Source: a virus. From it: 64,000 nucleotides of DNA. Positions 21,719-48,220 of the stretch are shown one piece after another (within the stretch, counting starts at the first letter, position 1; each line of letters starts with the position of its first letter). The notes under the pieces are model-generated. The model saw only the letters and a program-made list of their open reading frames with translations. It searched no databases and was not told the DNA's origin. The position numbers were made by a program, and so were the translations under genes. The DNA is taken from positions 62,001 to 126,000 of the IMG/VR virus record IMGVR_UViG_3300008262_000014. One strand, written 5' to 3'.

Positions 21719-22171
21719 TTATATATTAATAATTATAAAATCAGATGATGAAAATGTTCCATTATTTACAGTGTAATCTATTTTAACTTTTGCGGTATAT
21801 GGTTTAGTTGAAAAATCTGAAACTCTAAAAAGTCTATTATCCTCATCTTCCATAGAACCAACTAATCTATCGGGATCATCTTCAGCCGATGTAATACTAA
21901 TAGAATTAATATCTAAATTTGGTATATATTTTCTAACACTTTCTCTTATTTCATCTTCAATAAGATTATATGATACGACATCATTTTGTTCAAAAATATA
22001 CTCATATATTCTTGTTCCAAAATCAGGTAGATAATATCTACTACCTTTTCTTGTTAGTAAAAGATGTAATAAGTTTGCTCTAACTTCTCTTTCAGGAGTT
22101 TCAGTCATTCTTAAAAAGTCACCTTTTCTACTATCTCTAAATGGATAATCTATACCATATGTTACTGCCAT
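21719..22171 (-). CDS. 25: Baseplate wedge protein gp25-like
   Basis: A 150-residue homologue of T4 gp25 (132 residues), which connects wedge to hub and nucleates the sheath. Visible family features: an N-terminal YGIDYPFRDS, the middle EREVRANLLHLLLTRKGSRY, then YLPDFGTRIYEYIFEQND, corresponding to the conserved lysozyme-like-named but non-enzymatic GPW/gp25 fold. It is the first gene after the structured non-coding region 22211-22317 and is followed one base later by gp6. The leader has no Shine-Dalgarno sequence; a TATTTATT motif lies only 3 bases before the ATG. The start is fixed by alignment with the usual family N-terminus. Confidence 0.92.
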   Translation of the reverse strand: MAVTYGIDYPFRDSRKGDFLRMTETPEREVRANLLHLLLTRKGSRYYLPDFGTRIYEYIFEQNDVVSYNLIEDEIRESVRKYIPNLDINSISITSAEDDPDRLVGSMEDEDNRLFRVSDFSTKPYTAKVKIDYTVNNGTFSSSDFIIINI

Positions 22172-22174
22172 GAT

Positions 22175-22182
22175 AATAAATA
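22175..22182 (-). promoter_or_regulatory. TATTTATT motif just upstream of gp25
   Basis: Gene-oriented TATTTATT ending 3 bases before the gp25 ATG. This spacing is too short for a promoter core unless the transcript starts inside the gene, so a role in translation initiation or a chance match must be considered. Confidence 0.3.
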
Positions 22183-22210
22183 TAATGATATTCGAAATCT
22201 TTTTAAATGA

Positions 22211-22236
22211 AAAATCCAGACATATGTCTGGATTTT
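22211..22236 (-). terminator. Perfect-palindrome terminator after the reductase operon
   Basis: A perfect 26-base palindrome, left half AAAATCCAGACAT, right half ATGTCTGGATTTT, followed on the minus strand by further T residues (GGATTTTTCATTT). It closes the transcript carrying the reductase, DUF5522 gene and the GC-rich stretch, upstream of gp25. The T run is on the minus-strand side; the A run on the other side could allow bidirectional use. Confidence 0.8.
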
Positions 22237-22317
22237 GTCCATGTTAATTATGGTGGTTTGGTTTTCACCCCCTGTATAACCAATCCTTAGATGCTCAAGG
22301 TACGCCTTGACGACAGA
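22237..22317 (-). ncRNA. GC-rich candidate structured RNA
   Basis: An ~80-base non-coding stretch that is about 45-50% GC, against roughly 27% around it. On the minus strand it has a hairpin TCAAGG-CGTA-CCTTGA (22291-22306) and a second stem TTGGTT/AACCAA whose loop contains GGGGGTGA; GGTG in that loop can pair with a downstream CACC, giving a possible H-type pseudoknot. A strong terminator follows at once. No ATG-started frame covers it, though the frame after the DUF5522 stop stays open. It could be a small RNA, a 3'UTR element of the reductase operon or a leader element for gp25. I recognise no known RNA family and it does not fold as a tRNA. Confidence 0.45.
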
Positions 22318-22515
22318 CTAATCTTTGAGGGAGTCATCCAATCCTTTTTTTAAAGTGGTATTATTTTTTTCTCCTTTAGGTTCATATGGACAATGTCTAC
22401 ATCCATTACCTGATGATCCACAACAATACCCTCTTTCTATGTGATATCTTTCAGTGAAGATAACTTTATTACCATCAAGATAATAATGTGTTCCTTCAAT
22501 AAATTCATTACTCAT
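22318..22515 (-). CDS. DUF5522-like cysteine-rich small protein
   Basis: A 65-residue protein. It carries YHIERGYCCGSSGNGCRHCP followed by Y, matching the CCG..GC.HCPY pattern of DUF5522, a small cysteine-rich family frequent in Bacteroidota. The four cysteines and the His could bind a metal, but no function is established. Relative to the usual motif there is an extra SSGN insertion between CCG and GC. It starts 10 bases after the reductase gene ends, so both are on one transcript. The presence of this family in the phage supports acquisition from, or adaptation to, a Bacteroidota host. Confidence 0.75.
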   Translation of the reverse strand: MSNEFIEGTHYYLDGNKVIFTERYHIERGYCCGSSGNGCRHCPYEPKGEKNNTTLKKGLDDSLKD

Positions 22516-22524
22516 TTTATTGAT

Positions 22525-24798
22525 TTAGATACTGGTTATTTCACAAGATCCACCACTACAGGCCATACTAGCATAATCACTAATATCTTTATATTGTGGT
22601 TTGTCTAATATTTGACCAAAATCAACTTCTTTAAATTGACGAGTAACTGTTTCCCATTTATGGAAAAGATGAACATCTTTCAAACAATAAACCATCTTCT
22701 TAAGATCACCTTTGAAGTAATTCTTAGCAAATTTTTTGGCTCTTGTTATCCAATAATTTTTTAAAAGAACTTGTTCTCTTGTTCCAGTCACAGGAAGTGG
22801 TGAATCTGTTTGTGTACTAATTAAAGTATCACAAGCCATCCATAAATTATTTTCAAAATAGTGAAGACCGTCGATAACCAAACCAGATGCTAAAATAGAT
22901 CCTTTACCATATTCTTCGACTATTTCATTTAGGTTTAATACAGATGTAAATGGTGCTTGATTAAAATCTTTGTCACCATAATCTGACATGAAACTTACTG
23001 CAGTGAAATAATCTCTTTCATTCCAAATATATTCAACAATAGCATCTTTATCGTCAATGATAACAGTACAACTTGTATTATGATTAACGGGGCTATATGT
23101 ACATAATTCAGGATTGGTCCCTTCATTAACCCAATTTTGTTGTACCAATTTGATTAATTCAAGATGTTTAATACCTTTCATATCTTTCTTGAATAAACCT
23201 TGTTTTGGATTTTCTACAGGTACAAATACAACATAATCACTCTTAGTTGATGACCATACACTTTCTTCAAGTAAGAAAGACATATTATCTTGTAACCATT
23301 TAGCAGTATTACTTTCTTTGTTCAATTGCATAATTCTGAAATATTTCTCAGAATGTTCTGGATGAATACCGCTAGCCGTTCCTAATACAACTGAAGCGTT
23401 GCCCGATGGTTTAACACAAGTAGTTCTTGCCGCTTGATTAATTTCAATAATCTGAGCAACTTCTTTATTTGTTCTCTTAACCACCTCAGCACCTTCTTTA
23501 AGTAATTCAGCATTAAATAATTTAGGGTTGTTCATCCAACCTGTTATACTAACACCTAATAATGCCTCTCTTTCAAATATTTTTCTACTAGTTTCACCTA
23601 AATAAGGGAAATTAGTATAACCCGCTTGTAAAGTACCTAATGTTGAAGCATCTTTACATGCTTTAAAGAATTTTTCTTTTGTTGTACATTTTTCAGCATT
23701 AATTTCTGTTAAATTACAACCTTGAATTCCAAATTTATCATTATTAGTTTTAGTGAATTCCTCAATATCATCATAATGAATTTTTGAAAAATCAACATTC
23801 ATTAATACAGGTATCTTTAAAATCTCAAAACATGGGTTGAACATATCAAACCAACTATTAGCAAAAACGAATCCAATATCATTTGCACCATCGTTTAATT
23901 TAACCAAGTATTCAAATTGTTCTCTTTTAACTTCACTTCTCAATAATAACACTGAATTATTACTTCTACCTCTTTGTGGGTTTTCAACTCTCCAATTACC
24001 TGTTTTTGCGTGAATCATTTCATCGTCGTTTGGATCTACGATCATATTCAAAGCTGAACGACGAACACCTCCAGATAACACAGCGTCTGCCGAATGACAA
24101 ATAATATCAAAAGCTAATATAGGTCTAATTTCATTACCTTCTTTTTCAATCCATCTTTCAATTAATTGTTCTATTTTTTCCAAAGACTGTTTTAAACCTT
24201 CGGGACCAGGTGCTTTAAATCCACCACTAATAAAAGAACCTTTCTCTCTAATTTGAGAATAATCAAATTTAACTTCATAACCTGCGAACTCAGGAAAAGG
24301 TTGTCTGTCCACAAAGTAAGAAGACATTAACACCCCTAAAGCATCTGACCATCCTTCGATACTATCGTTGATAACGAATGTTTTAGTACCGTTTAATCTT
24401 TTCTGAATTCTACTCAAATTCTTAACAAATGGTTTTAATAATCCACCACCAAATCCACATCCGGATAAAGCTAAGTAAAAAATTTCTTGGAAGACTCTGT
24501 TTCTGGCAATGTGACCTGACGTACAATTAAACATTCTTGTGTTATGTTTCATTATTTGTTCGTGACGATACTGTAAGTTTCTTTGTGAAGCTAAAACCAA
24601 TTGGTCTTTCATACTTTCAAGTGCCGAATTGAAATATGGTAATAACTCATCTGTATATTTTTTATACTTTTTTCTGTGTCCATCCATGATGTTATCACAT
24701 GCGTCTTCCCATGTTTCGTACCTTCCTTTTTCTTCTAACCATTTAAAATAATCTGAATGTAACTTTAAGTCACTCAGAAATTTTTTACCTTTCTGCAT
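22525..24798 (-). CDS. nrdJ: Adenosylcobalamin-dependent (class II) ribonucleotide reductase
   Basis: A 757-residue monomeric-type class II reductase that converts ribonucleotides to deoxyribonucleotides using coenzyme B12. Visible features: CTSGHIARNRVFQEIFYLAL near residue 94, ending in SGCGFGGG; the active-site NPCFE near residue 320, holding the thiyl-radical cysteine; TCVKPSGNASVVLGTASGIH in the barrel; and the C-terminal redox pair in ACSGGSCEI. Cysteines of the substrate-reducing pair appear in place. There is no NrdB-like subunit gene nearby, consistent with class II. It follows the helicase gene by 26 bases and precedes the DUF5522 gene. The enzyme should need host cobalamin; no cobalamin riboswitch is seen in the short leader. 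Confidence 0.92.
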   Translation of the reverse strand: MQKGKKFLSDLKLHSDYFKWLEEKGRYETWEDACDNIMDGHRKKYKKYTDELLPYFNSALESMKDQLVLASQRNLQYRHEQIMKHNTRMFNCTSGHIARNRVFQEIFYLALSGCGFGGGLLKPFVKNLSRIQKRLNGTKTFVINDSIEGWSDALGVLMSSYFVDRQPFPEFAGYEVKFDYSQIREKGSFISGGFKAPGPEGLKQSLEKIEQLIERWIEKEGNEIRPILAFDIICHSADAVLSGGVRRSALNMIVDPNDDEMIHAKTGNWRVENPQRGRSNNSVLLLRSEVKREQFEYLVKLNDGANDIGFVFANSWFDMFNPCFEILKIPVLMNVDFSKIHYDDIEEFTKTNNDKFGIQGCNLTEINAEKCTTKEKFFKACKDASTLGTLQAGYTNFPYLGETSRKIFEREALLGVSITGWMNNPKLFNAELLKEGAEVVKRTNKEVAQIIEINQAARTTCVKPSGNASVVLGTASGIHPEHSEKYFRIMQLNKESNTAKWLQDNMSFLLEESVWSSTKSDYVVFVPVENPKQGLFKKDMKGIKHLELIKLVQQNWVNEGTNPELCTYSPVNHNTSCTVIIDDKDAIVEYIWNERDYFTAVSFMSDYGDKDFNQAPFTSVLNLNEIVEEYGKGSILASGLVIDGLHYFENNLWMACDTLISTQTDSPLPVTGTREQVLLKNYWITRAKKFAKNYFKGDLKKMVYCLKDVHLFHKWETVTRQFKEVDFGQILDKPQYKDISDYASMACSGGSCEITSI

Positions 24799-45388: not shown

Positions 45389-48220
45389 TTATATGTTTTC
45401 AAATGAAGCACCTGTAGGTGTAATTATGAATTGTAAATCAATAAATTCAAGAGATCTAGTTGGTTTTATGTAAATTTTACCTCTTAAAGTATTTGAATCC
45501 AGATCTTCAGGATCGTTTGATACTGTTACACGGAATTCATATAAACCTCTTTCCTTCTTGATAGATTCAAGTATTGGATTCACTAATCTCAAGAATTCAT
45601 TTCTTACTTGTTCGTCATTTTGTTCAAATAACAATCTAATTGCAACAGCGGATATTAGTTTTCTTGCTCTTAATAATAATCTTCTAACATTAATTCTATC
45701 CAATGCAGATTCTCTTACTTGTAAAGTTTTATTACCCCAAATTATGGTTCCGGTATCAGAAAATGTTGCAATTGGGTTAATTCTATTCTTATACAATAAA
45801 TCTCTTTCATCTAAAGTTAATTTTTTAAATGCTTTAATTGAATTAACTAAACCTCTAGAATAACCGGCAACCGCGAACCAAGGATATGAAACATTATCAG
45901 TTAATGCGATATTTCTAACCACTTCACCTGTTGGTGGGATGTAAATTTGGGTAGCATTATCCCCATCTCTAATTTGTATCCAAGGCCAGTATGTTGCAGA
46001 ATAGTTACTATCATAACCTAAATCTTCTAACATACCCACAACTTCTTCCGCATCACCAACATTTGGTGTGTTAATGATATATAAAGAATCCGCTCTATCT
46101 TCTTCAACCATATCAATCGCTTGATTTGTTAAAGAATTATGGTCATAAAAGTTCAATCCAGGTGTTGCGAATACATTTATATTTACCGCTTCAGGATTTG
46201 AAAATGTATTAATACCATTTAAGTAAGCGTAATAGTCAGAATTACCCTCATTTGTGTTAAAAACACCACCATTTGTTGTCCAGTTAGAAACATAGGTATT
46301 TTTACCAAAAATATACTGATCGGTATTTGTTTTTACATTTCTGTATATATCCCAACCATCAAATCCACCATATGCTGCGAATGTGAATTTACGGAATGTA
46401 ATATTTTGAAATTTACCTTTATTTAATCCTTCTAAATCATATGGTGTTGTTTTATATGTGGTACCAGTTATTGATGCTGCGTTTACTGATAAATGGAAAC
46501 CATGAGTTGTTGTATCTTCAGAACTTGATCCTTTGTATTTAAATAAATCTTCATCATATTTAAACCCAACTTGTGAAGATAAACCTAAAGAAACTTTTCT
46601 AACTTTATCTCCATTTGTTGTTTGTGGTGCACCATTAGATTCATAATAAACAATGTCTCCAGCATCAAAATATTCAGTTTTATACATCACACTACCTAAT
46701 GTAGAATTTGTACCAAATGAAGTATTACTTGCAAACCCTTTAAATCCAGCAGGAACCGCATCAATAGGTGCGTTTTCCATCATTTCTAACATTATATATT
46801 TTGATTTTAATTCATATTCCCCATCACTCGTACCTATTCTTTTGGCAATATAACCAGGTAAATCAGGATCCATTGAACATCTTGAAAATTTCTCAATTCC
46901 AACAACATTTTCATCGGTGTCGTAAAAATCACGTACAATTATATCAAATTCTTTAGTGTCTAAATTTATGTTTTGTATTGATATTTTTACTTGTTCGTTT
47001 GACGCTTCACCATCAGATATTGTTATAACTTTGAAAAGATCAGCAACTTTACCACCACGTACTTCAGATACTACTGTTGGTGATAATGCTGTCCCCCATC
47101 TTTCTACGAAATCATCACCATCTATGTTATAAACATCTGTTGTACTTAAACCTCTAACAAGACCCTGTTGATACAAGTTTTTCAATAAATTAGGATATGA
47201 TTCATGTACATATACAGGGAAGTCAACATATGATTTATCAAAAACAGAATTACCTAAAACTTTTGTAATGAATTTAGATGATGTGGTATCTAAACTACAG
47301 TCAAATGATTTTAAACCACCAGTTAAACCATTAACAACAATTTTAAATTCACTTAAGGGATCAGTATCAATTGTGGATGAAACAATACTAAAATTAGTTG
47401 AATTTGTTACCTCTAAAGTTAATGTTTGACCAACATACCTACCTCTAGATCTAAGTGCCACAACAATTACGTTTGCATATTCTGTGTTTAAAGATGCGGG
47501 GTATTTAAATCTTGTTATATTAAATGTACTTGTTGATTGGTTATATACAAAAAGATATGAATAAACACCATCAATTGTTGCATCATTACCTGGAGTAGTT
47601 TCTGTATAATAAATGTTATACCAATTCTTTTCATTGTAAATACCAATAGGTGAAACTAAACTAGTACCTGTCAATGGTACTGTTGCAGATGTTGGTACAG
47701 GACCAATTGTAAAGTAATCACCATTAGTAAATGTTGTTCCACTCACATATGATGGTATTGTAATACCATCGGTATTTAATTTATCTGATAATTCAGTATA
47801 ATAAGAACTACTAGTAACCGCTGTTGTAGACATCGTACTAGATCCCGATGTTGGTGTTGCGGTGGTATCAACTGTAACACCACCTAATGTTCTAATACCA
47901 AATGTATTATATGGTTTATAACCAGTTAAACCTAAAACTCTTGTTACAAATAATTGATTTGATTCTTGTAAATATGCTTTTGCGACATATCCCAATTCAT
48001 ATTTTGGATTACCATTACCATCTTTTTCTGGTGATGTTGTACCGAAATACGTTCTAAATTCATCAAAATTTGTTATTAAAACTGGTTCGAAAGCGGGTCC
48101 TTTTAAAGTTTCACCCACTAAACCTAAAGTAGTCACACCAACGCTCTGTGCGACAAATGTTAAATCTAATTCTGAGGTATATACACCTGGAGACACAAAT
48201 ACTCTGTTTGAAGTAGCCAT
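45389..48220 (-). CDS. 18: Tail sheath protein gp18-like
   Basis: A 943-residue contractile sheath protein (T4 gp18 is 659). The N-terminus is typical (NRVFVSPGVYTSELDLTFVA then QSVGVTTLGLVGETLKGPAF), as is the C-terminal core (EDLGYDSNYSATYWPWIQIR, PPTGEVVRNIALTDN, PWFAVAGYSRGL, and RARKLISAVAIRLLFEQNDE, then DPEDLDSNTLRGKIYIKPTR). The extra ~280 residues sit in the middle as surface domains (Thr/Ser-rich, residues ~100-450), as in other large myoviruses. A terminator follows directly, and a TATTTATA motif lies 39 bases upstream. Start at MATSNRVFVSPGVY matches the family. Confidence 0.93.
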   Translation of the reverse strand: MATSNRVFVSPGVYTSELDLTFVAQSVGVTTLGLVGETLKGPAFEPVLITNFDEFRTYFGTTSPEKDGNGNPKYELGYVAKAYLQESNQLFVTRVLGLTGYKPYNTFGIRTLGGVTVDTTATPTSGSSTMSTTAVTSSSYYTELSDKLNTDGITIPSYVSGTTFTNGDYFTIGPVPTSATVPLTGTSLVSPIGIYNEKNWYNIYYTETTPGNDATIDGVYSYLFVYNQSTSTFNITRFKYPASLNTEYANVIVVALRSRGRYVGQTLTLEVTNSTNFSIVSSTIDTDPLSEFKIVVNGLTGGLKSFDCSLDTTSSKFITKVLGNSVFDKSYVDFPVYVHESYPNLLKNLYQQGLVRGLSTTDVYNIDGDDFVERWGTALSPTVVSEVRGGKVADLFKVITISDGEASNEQVKISIQNINLDTKEFDIIVRDFYDTDENVVGIEKFSRCSMDPDLPGYIAKRIGTSDGEYELKSKYIMLEMMENAPIDAVPAGFKGFASNTSFGTNSTLGSVMYKTEYFDAGDIVYYESNGAPQTTNGDKVRKVSLGLSSQVGFKYDEDLFKYKGSSSEDTTTHGFHLSVNAASITGTTYKTTPYDLEGLNKGKFQNITFRKFTFAAYGGFDGWDIYRNVKTNTDQYIFGKNTYVSNWTTNGGVFNTNEGNSDYYAYLNGINTFSNPEAVNINVFATPGLNFYDHNSLTNQAIDMVEEDRADSLYIINTPNVGDAEEVVGMLEDLGYDSNYSATYWPWIQIRDGDNATQIYIPPTGEVVRNIALTDNVSYPWFAVAGYSRGLVNSIKAFKKLTLDERDLLYKNRINPIATFSDTGTIIWGNKTLQVRESALDRINVRRLLLRARKLISAVAIRLLFEQNDEQVRNEFLRLVNPILESIKKERGLYEFRVTVSNDPEDLDSNTLRGKIYIKPTRSLEFIDLQFIITPTGASFENI

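Follow-up and report, generated by a model that had tools for sequence, protein, structure and literature searches.

The question raised by this locus is whether a short GC-rich stretch between a ribonucleotide reductase operon and the baseplate gene gp25 of a virus encodes an RNA and, if so, what such an RNA would do. The window, that is, the whole stretch of 64,000 nucleotides analyzed here, covers positions 62001-126000 of the 127,871-bp IMG/VR virus record IMGVR_UViG_3300008262_000014. A first-pass annotation, made from the letters alone, had read the stretch as a structured phage RNA followed by its own terminator, either a small RNA or a riboswitch-like element. What it had observed is partly confirmed below, and its reading as a structured phage RNA with a terminator is supported by comparison with relatives.

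The element in the window and its fold

On the minus strand, the order is class II RTPR-like reductase, DUF5522, RNA element, terminator and gp25, with the following parts.

22525..24798, minus strand: nrdJ, RTPR-like class II ribonucleotide reductase (NCBIfam TIGR02505, 125.9 bits, below the cut-off of 340; a Pfam search of this reading frame at 0.001 gave no match)
22318..22515, minus strand: upstream gene DUF5522 (PF17653; Pfam, 54.1 bits), its 3′ end inside the RNA element
22255..22340, minus strand: structured RNA element with the core P1-pseudoknot-P2-P3, 5′ end at about 22340, defined by its nhmmer and cmsearch family and by covariation
22335..22340, minus strand: P1 5′ arm TGGATG, overlapping DUF5522 codons; double changes in relatives
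22329..22334, minus strand: pseudoknot 5′ arm ACTCCC, overlapping DUF5522 codons; partner GGGGGT at 22272-22267
22295..22310, minus strand: P2 hairpin TCAAGG-CGTA-CCTTGA, covarying in relatives (TTAAGG/CCTTAA, GCGG/CCGC and others)
22288..22293, minus strand: P1 3′ arm CATCTA, partner of TGGATG at 22340-22335
22278..22286, minus strand: P3 5′ arm GGATTGGTT, eight of its nine positions pairing with 22263-22255
22264..22277, minus strand: P3 loop ATACA-GGGGGT-GAA, holding the pseudoknot 3′ arm (22272-22267); the flanks ATACA and GAA are mostly conserved
22255..22263, minus strand: P3 3′ arm AACCAAACC, with double changes at all seven P3 pairs modelled in alignment A2
22211..22236, minus strand: intrinsic terminator, a perfect 26-base palindrome (-14.3 kcal/mol, z -5.9)
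21719..22171, minus strand: downstream gene gp25, baseplate wedge (Pfam PF04965, 47.9 bits)

The GC content of the element (22255-22340) is 46.5% against 28.8% for the whole window, a level reached by 0.4% of all 86-mers, and the 26-base palindrome is exact, as had been described. The terminator begins 18 nt 3′ of the fold. When the terminator was removed, the element alone folded no better than shuffled sequences (z -0.45), so that GC content and folding are weak evidence by themselves and only comparison can decide. The annotated location was right as to a structured RNA with a terminator and wrong as to its start, which had been set at 22317; the true start lies at about 22340, within the last codons of DUF5522, which the 5′ part of the RNA overlaps. 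The reading frame that stays open after the DUF5522 stop had been noted as a possible coding tail. We rejected this possibility, as the distance between the pseudoknot arms is not codon-phased, falling 20/15/11 over the three frames in 46 distinct relatives. Translational readthrough at the reductase stop was rejected as well, since in L014, judged by eye, an in-frame TGA comes a few codons later and would make any extension trivial. The core appears, by eye, to resemble the 3′ end of 16S rRNA and Shine-Dalgarno pairing. Many relatives have TTATATTTAT, or a near form of it, immediately before the gp25 start, the window copy being at 22172-22191 on the minus strand. The sequence TATATTTAT occurs six times in the window on both strands, against 12 expected from shuffles; in three of the six cases, a minus-strand ORF starts no more than 20 nt to the 3′ side.

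Alignment with relatives bore out most of the proposed helices. The TCAAGG/CCTTGA hairpin (22310-22305/22300-22295) covaries and corresponds to P2, and the TTGGTT/AACCAA stem (22283-22278/22263-22258) covaries as part of P3. Relatives do not retain the GGTG/CACC pseudoknot that had been suggested; the pseudoknot conserved among them pairs ACTCCC (22334-22329) with GGGGGT (22272-22267). Alignment A1 (MAFFT, 16 sequences, 25 pairs in four helices including the pseudoknot) was not fitted to structure; 97.0% of its cells are paired, with 18 double-change cells compared with 5.3 ± 2.0 in shuffles. Alignment A2 contains 36 sequences, more distant relatives included, and was aligned by model R1, which comprises P1, P2 and P3, favors these helices and leaves the pseudoknot outside; 93.7% of its cells are paired and 105 are double changes, compared with 29.1 ± 5.5 after shuffling. 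Double changes occur in A2 at all seven modelled P3 pairs, and 20 columns carry one letter in at least 90% of the 36 sequences. In A3 (82 sequences, 74 distinct), likewise fitted to a model that favors P1, P2 and P3, the pairs scored were P1, P2, the pseudoknot and one tertiary pair; 97.0% of the cells are paired and double changes number 130, compared with 31.7 ± 4.1 in shuffles. One pseudoknot arm was set by the search pattern, so that the pseudoknot columns of A3 carry little information. Further pair types were not above shuffles (34 versus 33.2 in A2, 24 versus 22.4 in A3). The sequence is conserved between relatives, its conservation is not in codon phase, and covariation is present, all of which leaves the RNA reading standing.

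The relatives thus show a common fold, kept by covariation, that consists of P1, a pseudoknot whose 5′ arm comes right after the P1 5′ arm, the hairpin P2, and P3 or an equivalent closing helix. The pseudoknot is found as ACTCCC/GGGGGT, GCTCCC/GGGGGC, ACTTCC/GGAAGT and ACCTTC/GGAGGT, with shorter arms (GCTCC with GGAGC or GGGGC) in six A2 sequences (L279, L281, L282, L295, L296 and L297) and one mismatch in L153. The RNA is closed in two ways. In the window variant, the pseudoknot 3′ arm lies inside P3; many members associated with tmRNA form P3 as a small local hairpin, and there the RNA as a whole is closed by an additional helix such as AAATCAC/GTGATTT. A second subtype, described below, also has a tertiary pair between R of AATR and Y of the P2 loop (AATR...YGA), which is A-U in 61, G-C in 18, G-U in one and A-C in none of 80 scorable sequences out of 82, the search pattern having allowed all four R-Y combinations. 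Five P2 stem sequences occur with both the A-U and the G-C pair. In the window's subtype this tertiary pair was not identified.

Relatives between ribonucleotide reductase genes and gp25

To the 3′ side of a reductase gene, the element has a recurrent place. Among 80 gp25 loci compared (the best 80 of 433), 38 carry it at nhmmer E ≤ 1e-4 and 42 do not, two of the latter having little upstream DNA. The reductase gene ahead of it is of one of three types (NrdJ with DUF5522, a long NrdA or a T4-like NrdA), and each type is also found without the element. In close relatives, the three types stand at the one place beside gp25 (L003-L082), as if exchanged by recombination. The long NrdA (L051 286-3801 and L179 201-3701) holds an apparent large intein, about 363 aa in L051, located by eye from the translation between WINQCF and HNGGKRKGS. 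A DNA pattern scan that was independent of gene context returned 62 stretches, and gp25 lies directly downstream in 56 of 57 distinct nhmmer loci, the exception (L175) having 34 bases after the element. Terminators of differing sequence stand at this place both where the RNA is present and where it is absent. Decayed or truncated copies are also present (L280, L319 and L268). What is left of a truncated element in L280, L377, L389 and L397 is the 5′ arms of P1 and of the pseudoknot together with P2, whose hairpin runs directly into a T-run, as if it had been made into a terminator.

Searches of whole records gave a similar picture. Model R1 matched 17 of 19 records, at one strong place each; weak second matches (E 0.0115 to 3) were taken as chance, and the place in G015 looks coding. 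Fourteen of 15 records reached via DUF5522 loci had no match at E ≤ 0.01, the fifteenth having a weak one (G705 46122-46187, 22.9 bits, E 0.0057). The five gp25 records searched came from loci whose state, RNA present or absent, had been seen before: three match, at sites known to carry a variant, and two, known to lack it, do not.

Elements beside tRNA and tmRNA genes

The core pattern of the second subtype, GGCTCCCTTAATRG...GGCYGACC, occurs in at least 120 viral stretches, with 80 distinct loci among the matches; of 80 matches listed, 19 are from contigs longer than 100 kb. Its near-constant core is partly due to the search pattern; the window's subtype and LR756504 differ in it. Two metagenomic phage records, LR756504 (636 kb; weak in blastn, E 0.05; 37.0 bits with model R2) and LR756500 (462 kb; weak in blastn, E 2; 32.6 bits with R2), presumably come from a huge-phage survey. 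Used as a blastn query against named phages, the window element hit 15 records, each with less than 31% coverage and E ≥ 0.3.

The family extends beyond phage records. A Candidatus Beckwithbacteria MAG, which we take to belong to Patescibacteria, scored 18.4 bits with R1 and 49.6 bits with R2, the latter model having been built with that sequence included. Two of 286 sampled genomes of that MAG's phylum match, namely the MAG itself and G141, whose sequence is not in the model and scored 72.1 bits with R2; samples around G141 (73 and 373 genomes including it, with stricter filters) returned G141 only. By eye, the ORFs on the G141 contig include gyrA, folD and a proton-pumping pyrophosphatase; the element there follows a gene that resembles DNA repair exonucleases of phages (phrog_7339) and a small ORF. 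AT-rich and GC-rich phages both have the fold, as does a Patescibacteria chromosome. In phage L355, a gene judged by eye to be phosphoesterase-like stands 215 nt ahead of the element, and such a gene also precedes it on the Patescibacteria chromosome L352/L499, where two similar phosphoesterase-like genes stand in tandem near an HTH-type ORF. The L352 element had no match at E ≤ 1 in phages or plasmids, and the L386-type element none in plasmids.

The RNA is mostly present once. One match was found in 18 of 20 large positive records and two in the other two, the 20 including near-copies and possibly fragments. In G388 and G392, two elements of differing sequence lie about 13.5 kb apart in the same phage record. 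HNH_3 homing-type endonuclease genes were seen 6 nt upstream of one element (L416) and 426 nt downstream of another (L357); beside the L349 element there is a transposase-like ORF start, recognized by eye in a 31-aa piece that has no Pfam match.

To describe the contexts, we used 82 distinct elements, namely the 80 distinct pattern loci less the truncated L377, which makes 79, plus L352, L474 and L475. The tmRNAs were called by Rfam in 12 loci, and the calls were then extended with an nhmmer profile made from those 12. Among the matches listed, seven of the 82 elements are internal to a tmRNA gene, another 24 precede a tmRNA by at most 300 nt (23 of them at 15-22 nt) and 19 have a tRNA within 300 nt (13 of them at 0-7 nt). 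The remaining 32 of those listed have neither within 300 nt in the DNA at hand, which also holds for the window site; five have a tRNA further off in the locus and in 27 none is seen. For these 27, again among the matches listed, the 3′ side has fewer than 150 bases in seven, and a reductase C-terminus lies upstream in eight, by eye. In L373, L391 and L398, no tmRNA reached the Rfam gathering score, and that of L391 was then found by the profile; in L408, the element sits within the PK2 part of an otherwise recognizable tmRNA (104.6 bits, poorly aligned there). In the 19 tRNA-group loci listed, every tRNA found is on the strand of the element. The arrays hold as many as 31 tRNAs per locus, and the element takes varying places in them: at one extreme 28 tRNAs lie upstream of it and three downstream, at the other three upstream and 18 downstream.

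A promoter-like TAnnTTTG, which we assume to be the Bacteroidota -7 box, occurs within 40 nt 5′ of 23 of the 24 tmRNA-upstream elements listed, which are related to each other; the background is 97 of 4100 40-mers. Elsewhere among the matches listed, it occurs in five of 19 tRNA-group, none of seven tmRNA-internal and five of 32 other elements. Terminator-like hairpins within 75 nt on the 3′ side were found, among the same matches listed, for one of 24 tmRNA-upstream, three of 19 tRNA-group, five of seven tmRNA-internal and ten of 32 other elements, those of the tmRNA-internal group being probably parts of the tmRNA.

What the RNA may do, and its known counterparts

Comparison establishes a new family of noncoding RNAs, tRNA-sized and pseudoknotted, that large tailed phages encode, and its fold; as to function, we tentatively prefer the explanation that the feature, as a member of this family, is a trans-acting gene product linked to translation. 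Such an RNA would be a product in its own right and not a cis switch. It would be transcribed together with others, here at the 3′ end of the nrdJ-DUF5522 transcript and elsewhere with tRNAs or tmRNA, and its knotted fold would let it survive. Its target in trans would be a host component shared in similar form by many bacteria, most probably a part of the translation or tRNA/tmRNA apparatus. That the gene encodes a trans-acting RNA is suggested by the single copy per positive record, the lack of a fixed neighbor gene and the placement in stable-RNA transcripts; a conserved host target is suggested by a fold kept across unlike phages, and a role in translation by the tRNA and tmRNA neighbors. 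Against this explanation, 32 of the 82 elements listed, and likewise that of the window, have neither a tRNA nor a tmRNA within 300 nt, the placement in the tmRNA ring could be that of a passive filler, and close relatives live without the element (42 of the best 80 of 433 gp25 loci and 14 of the 15 records reached via DUF5522 loci). To judge from sequence, phages may use an unrecognized RNA during translation. A compact fold found with tRNAs and tmRNA across very different large phages and in two Patescibacteria would point to an RNA role in phage takeover of translation, for which we found no report in the open literature. The RNA is small, readily transcribed and available in many natural variants, so that its cleavage, ribosome binding and structure are readily testable.

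The same placements could instead reflect a domain acting in cis on maturation or stability, the knotted fold blocking exonucleases or marking a processing site in its host transcript, be it the 3′ end of a reductase mRNA, the 5′ end of pre-tmRNA, a site between tRNAs or the tmRNA ring. We consider this rather unlikely. It would explain why the element sits at transcript ends or between processed RNAs in so many contexts, such as before the terminator here, just after a promoter-like box ahead of tmRNA (23 of the 24 listed) and at a distance of 0-7 nt from tRNAs (13 of the 19 tRNA-group loci listed); however, such a domain would hardly be expected only once in 18 of 20 positive records that have many transcripts and up to 31 tRNAs per locus, nor at array positions that shift from 28 up and three down to three up and 18 down. 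A more specific proposal, argued by analogy, is that of a new class of self-cleaving ribozyme that matures phage tRNAs, tmRNA and mRNA 3′ ends, with theta-like action and another fold, and that could also cut the tmRNA ring, where natural two-piece tmRNAs break. The pseudoknot, the covariation and the 20 near-constant columns are features sought in small ribozymes according to the accessible part of PMC10085705, even though the core of about 86 nt exceeds the 50-80 nt given there; the closeness to tRNAs parallels theta ribozymes as far as PMC10879173 describes them, and two-piece tmRNAs exist in nature (PMC10085705, in part), which makes a cut in the ring conceivable. Nevertheless, the junction before the pseudoknot 3′ arm has no invariant cytosine, 18 of 20 positive records hold one copy, and ten candidate RNAs did not cleave in the portion of PMC10085705 at hand, and we regard the proposal as improbable. 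The bolder form of it, in which large phages would carry a new small catalytic RNA class that cuts its own transcript beside tRNAs and tmRNA, and that in one lineage replaced a tmRNA pseudoknot to give a two-piece tmRNA, is a shade less probable still; if true, it would add a second phage ribozyme for tRNA and tmRNA processing beside theta ribozymes, structurally unrelated to them.

Three further explanations were weighed. Phage tRNAs are thought to offset tRNA cleavage, and an RNA carried with them, patchily present between close relatives, might be a decoy that mimics the target of anti-phage RNases attacking tRNA or tmRNA, or that soaks up an RNA-binding defense protein. Defense targets usually change fast, however, whereas this fold is kept across very different phages, which renders a decoy quite improbable. 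A mobile or parasitic insertion settling in harmless non-coding places is very unlikely: its scattered, patchy presence and the HNH_3 genes near the L416 and L357 elements, along with the transposase-like ORF start by L349 (by eye), would suit it, but not the low copy number, the selection on structure and the shared strand with neighboring tRNAs. Lowest in our estimation, and highly improbable, is a riboswitch or a terminator-coupled regulator of the gp25 or reductase operon. Its appeal comes from the fixed place between reductase and gp25 in one clade and from the terminator 18 nt after the fold; yet terminators vary in sequence with no corresponding change of the fold and persist when the RNA is absent, the element follows three different reductase types, and relatives lie before tmRNA, between tRNAs or inside tmRNA, with no downstream protein gene there to switch. 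Of the two readings offered in the first-pass annotation, the small RNA therefore fits better than the riboswitch.

The RNA family is apparently new, a statement that rests on Rfam 15 and open papers and leaves aside the supplementary motif sets of PMC8040213 and PMC10085705. As the annotation had found no known family, so the Rfam 15 covariance models gave no match at gathering score in the whole 64-kb window, and over element-bearing loci no match overlapping an element reached that score. Searches of the window element and L349 at E ≤ 10 and of 12 further element loci at E ≤ 1 returned no HDV family (in one Rfam set, one of the seven loci, L203, holds no element). Lines for RgsA, rli38, microRNA, SNORD36, STnc430, MicA, Yfr8 and BSnc120 were far below their gathering scores and were dismissed. 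In the open-access literature, no paper describing the RNA was found, also when searching with short core strings, which returned unrelated papers only.

Among known RNAs, the tmRNA pseudoknots PK2-PK4 are suggested as counterparts by the seven of 82 elements listed that lie within a tmRNA gene, where, in L387 and L408, only tmRNA models match around the element. In contrast to those pseudoknots, 75 of the 82 listed are outside tmRNA, and the fold is larger than a simple H-type knot. That the window element is itself a tmRNA (RF00023, tRNA-like ends, tag ORF) was rejected, no tmRNA having been found in the window. The T4 annotation places the stable RNAs rnaC and rnaD in the phage tRNA cluster, a setting like the tRNA arrays in which our family often occurs; homology was discarded, as model R2 over T4 69500-73500 with filters off gave at best 7.8 bits (E 0.79). 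ROOL and GOLLD are structured RNAs of phages and prophages with unknown function, often near tRNA islands, and both form nanocages, as stated in the accessible part of PMC12286853. Like them, the element is phage-encoded, structured and often near tRNAs; unlike GOLLD, which often exceeds 800 nt (PMC12286853, same part), its core is about 86 nt, and neither Rfam model matches. The family is relevant to the question why stable RNAs without a known function, such as ROOL, GOLLD and T4 rnaC/rnaD, are retained by large phages.

HDV-like ribozymes, to which theta ribozymes belong, were also compared. Their fold is a nested double pseudoknot in which P4 is closed before J4/2 and the P2 3′ arm, a helix order that the local-hairpin variant of the element resembles. 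The window variant differs, as there the pseudoknot 3′ arm lies inside P3, whose seven modelled pairs all show double changes. The catalytic cytosine of HDV-like ribozymes is the first position of J4/2 (PMC10879173, in part). In the element, the junction before the pseudoknot 3′ arm is mostly TATACA or AATACA and also TATATA, CATATA, AATAAA, TATATT or AATAAC; an HDV-like or theta ribozyme was thus rejected, with no invariant C at any junction position and no Rfam HDV match. Theta ribozymes are described in the accessible part of PMC10879173 as minimal HDV-like ribozymes of gut phages, often beside tRNAs. Both they and the element are small, pseudoknotted phage RNAs that often lie next to tRNAs, and by this analogy, as far as that source goes, theta ribozymes are the nearest functional analogue of the element.
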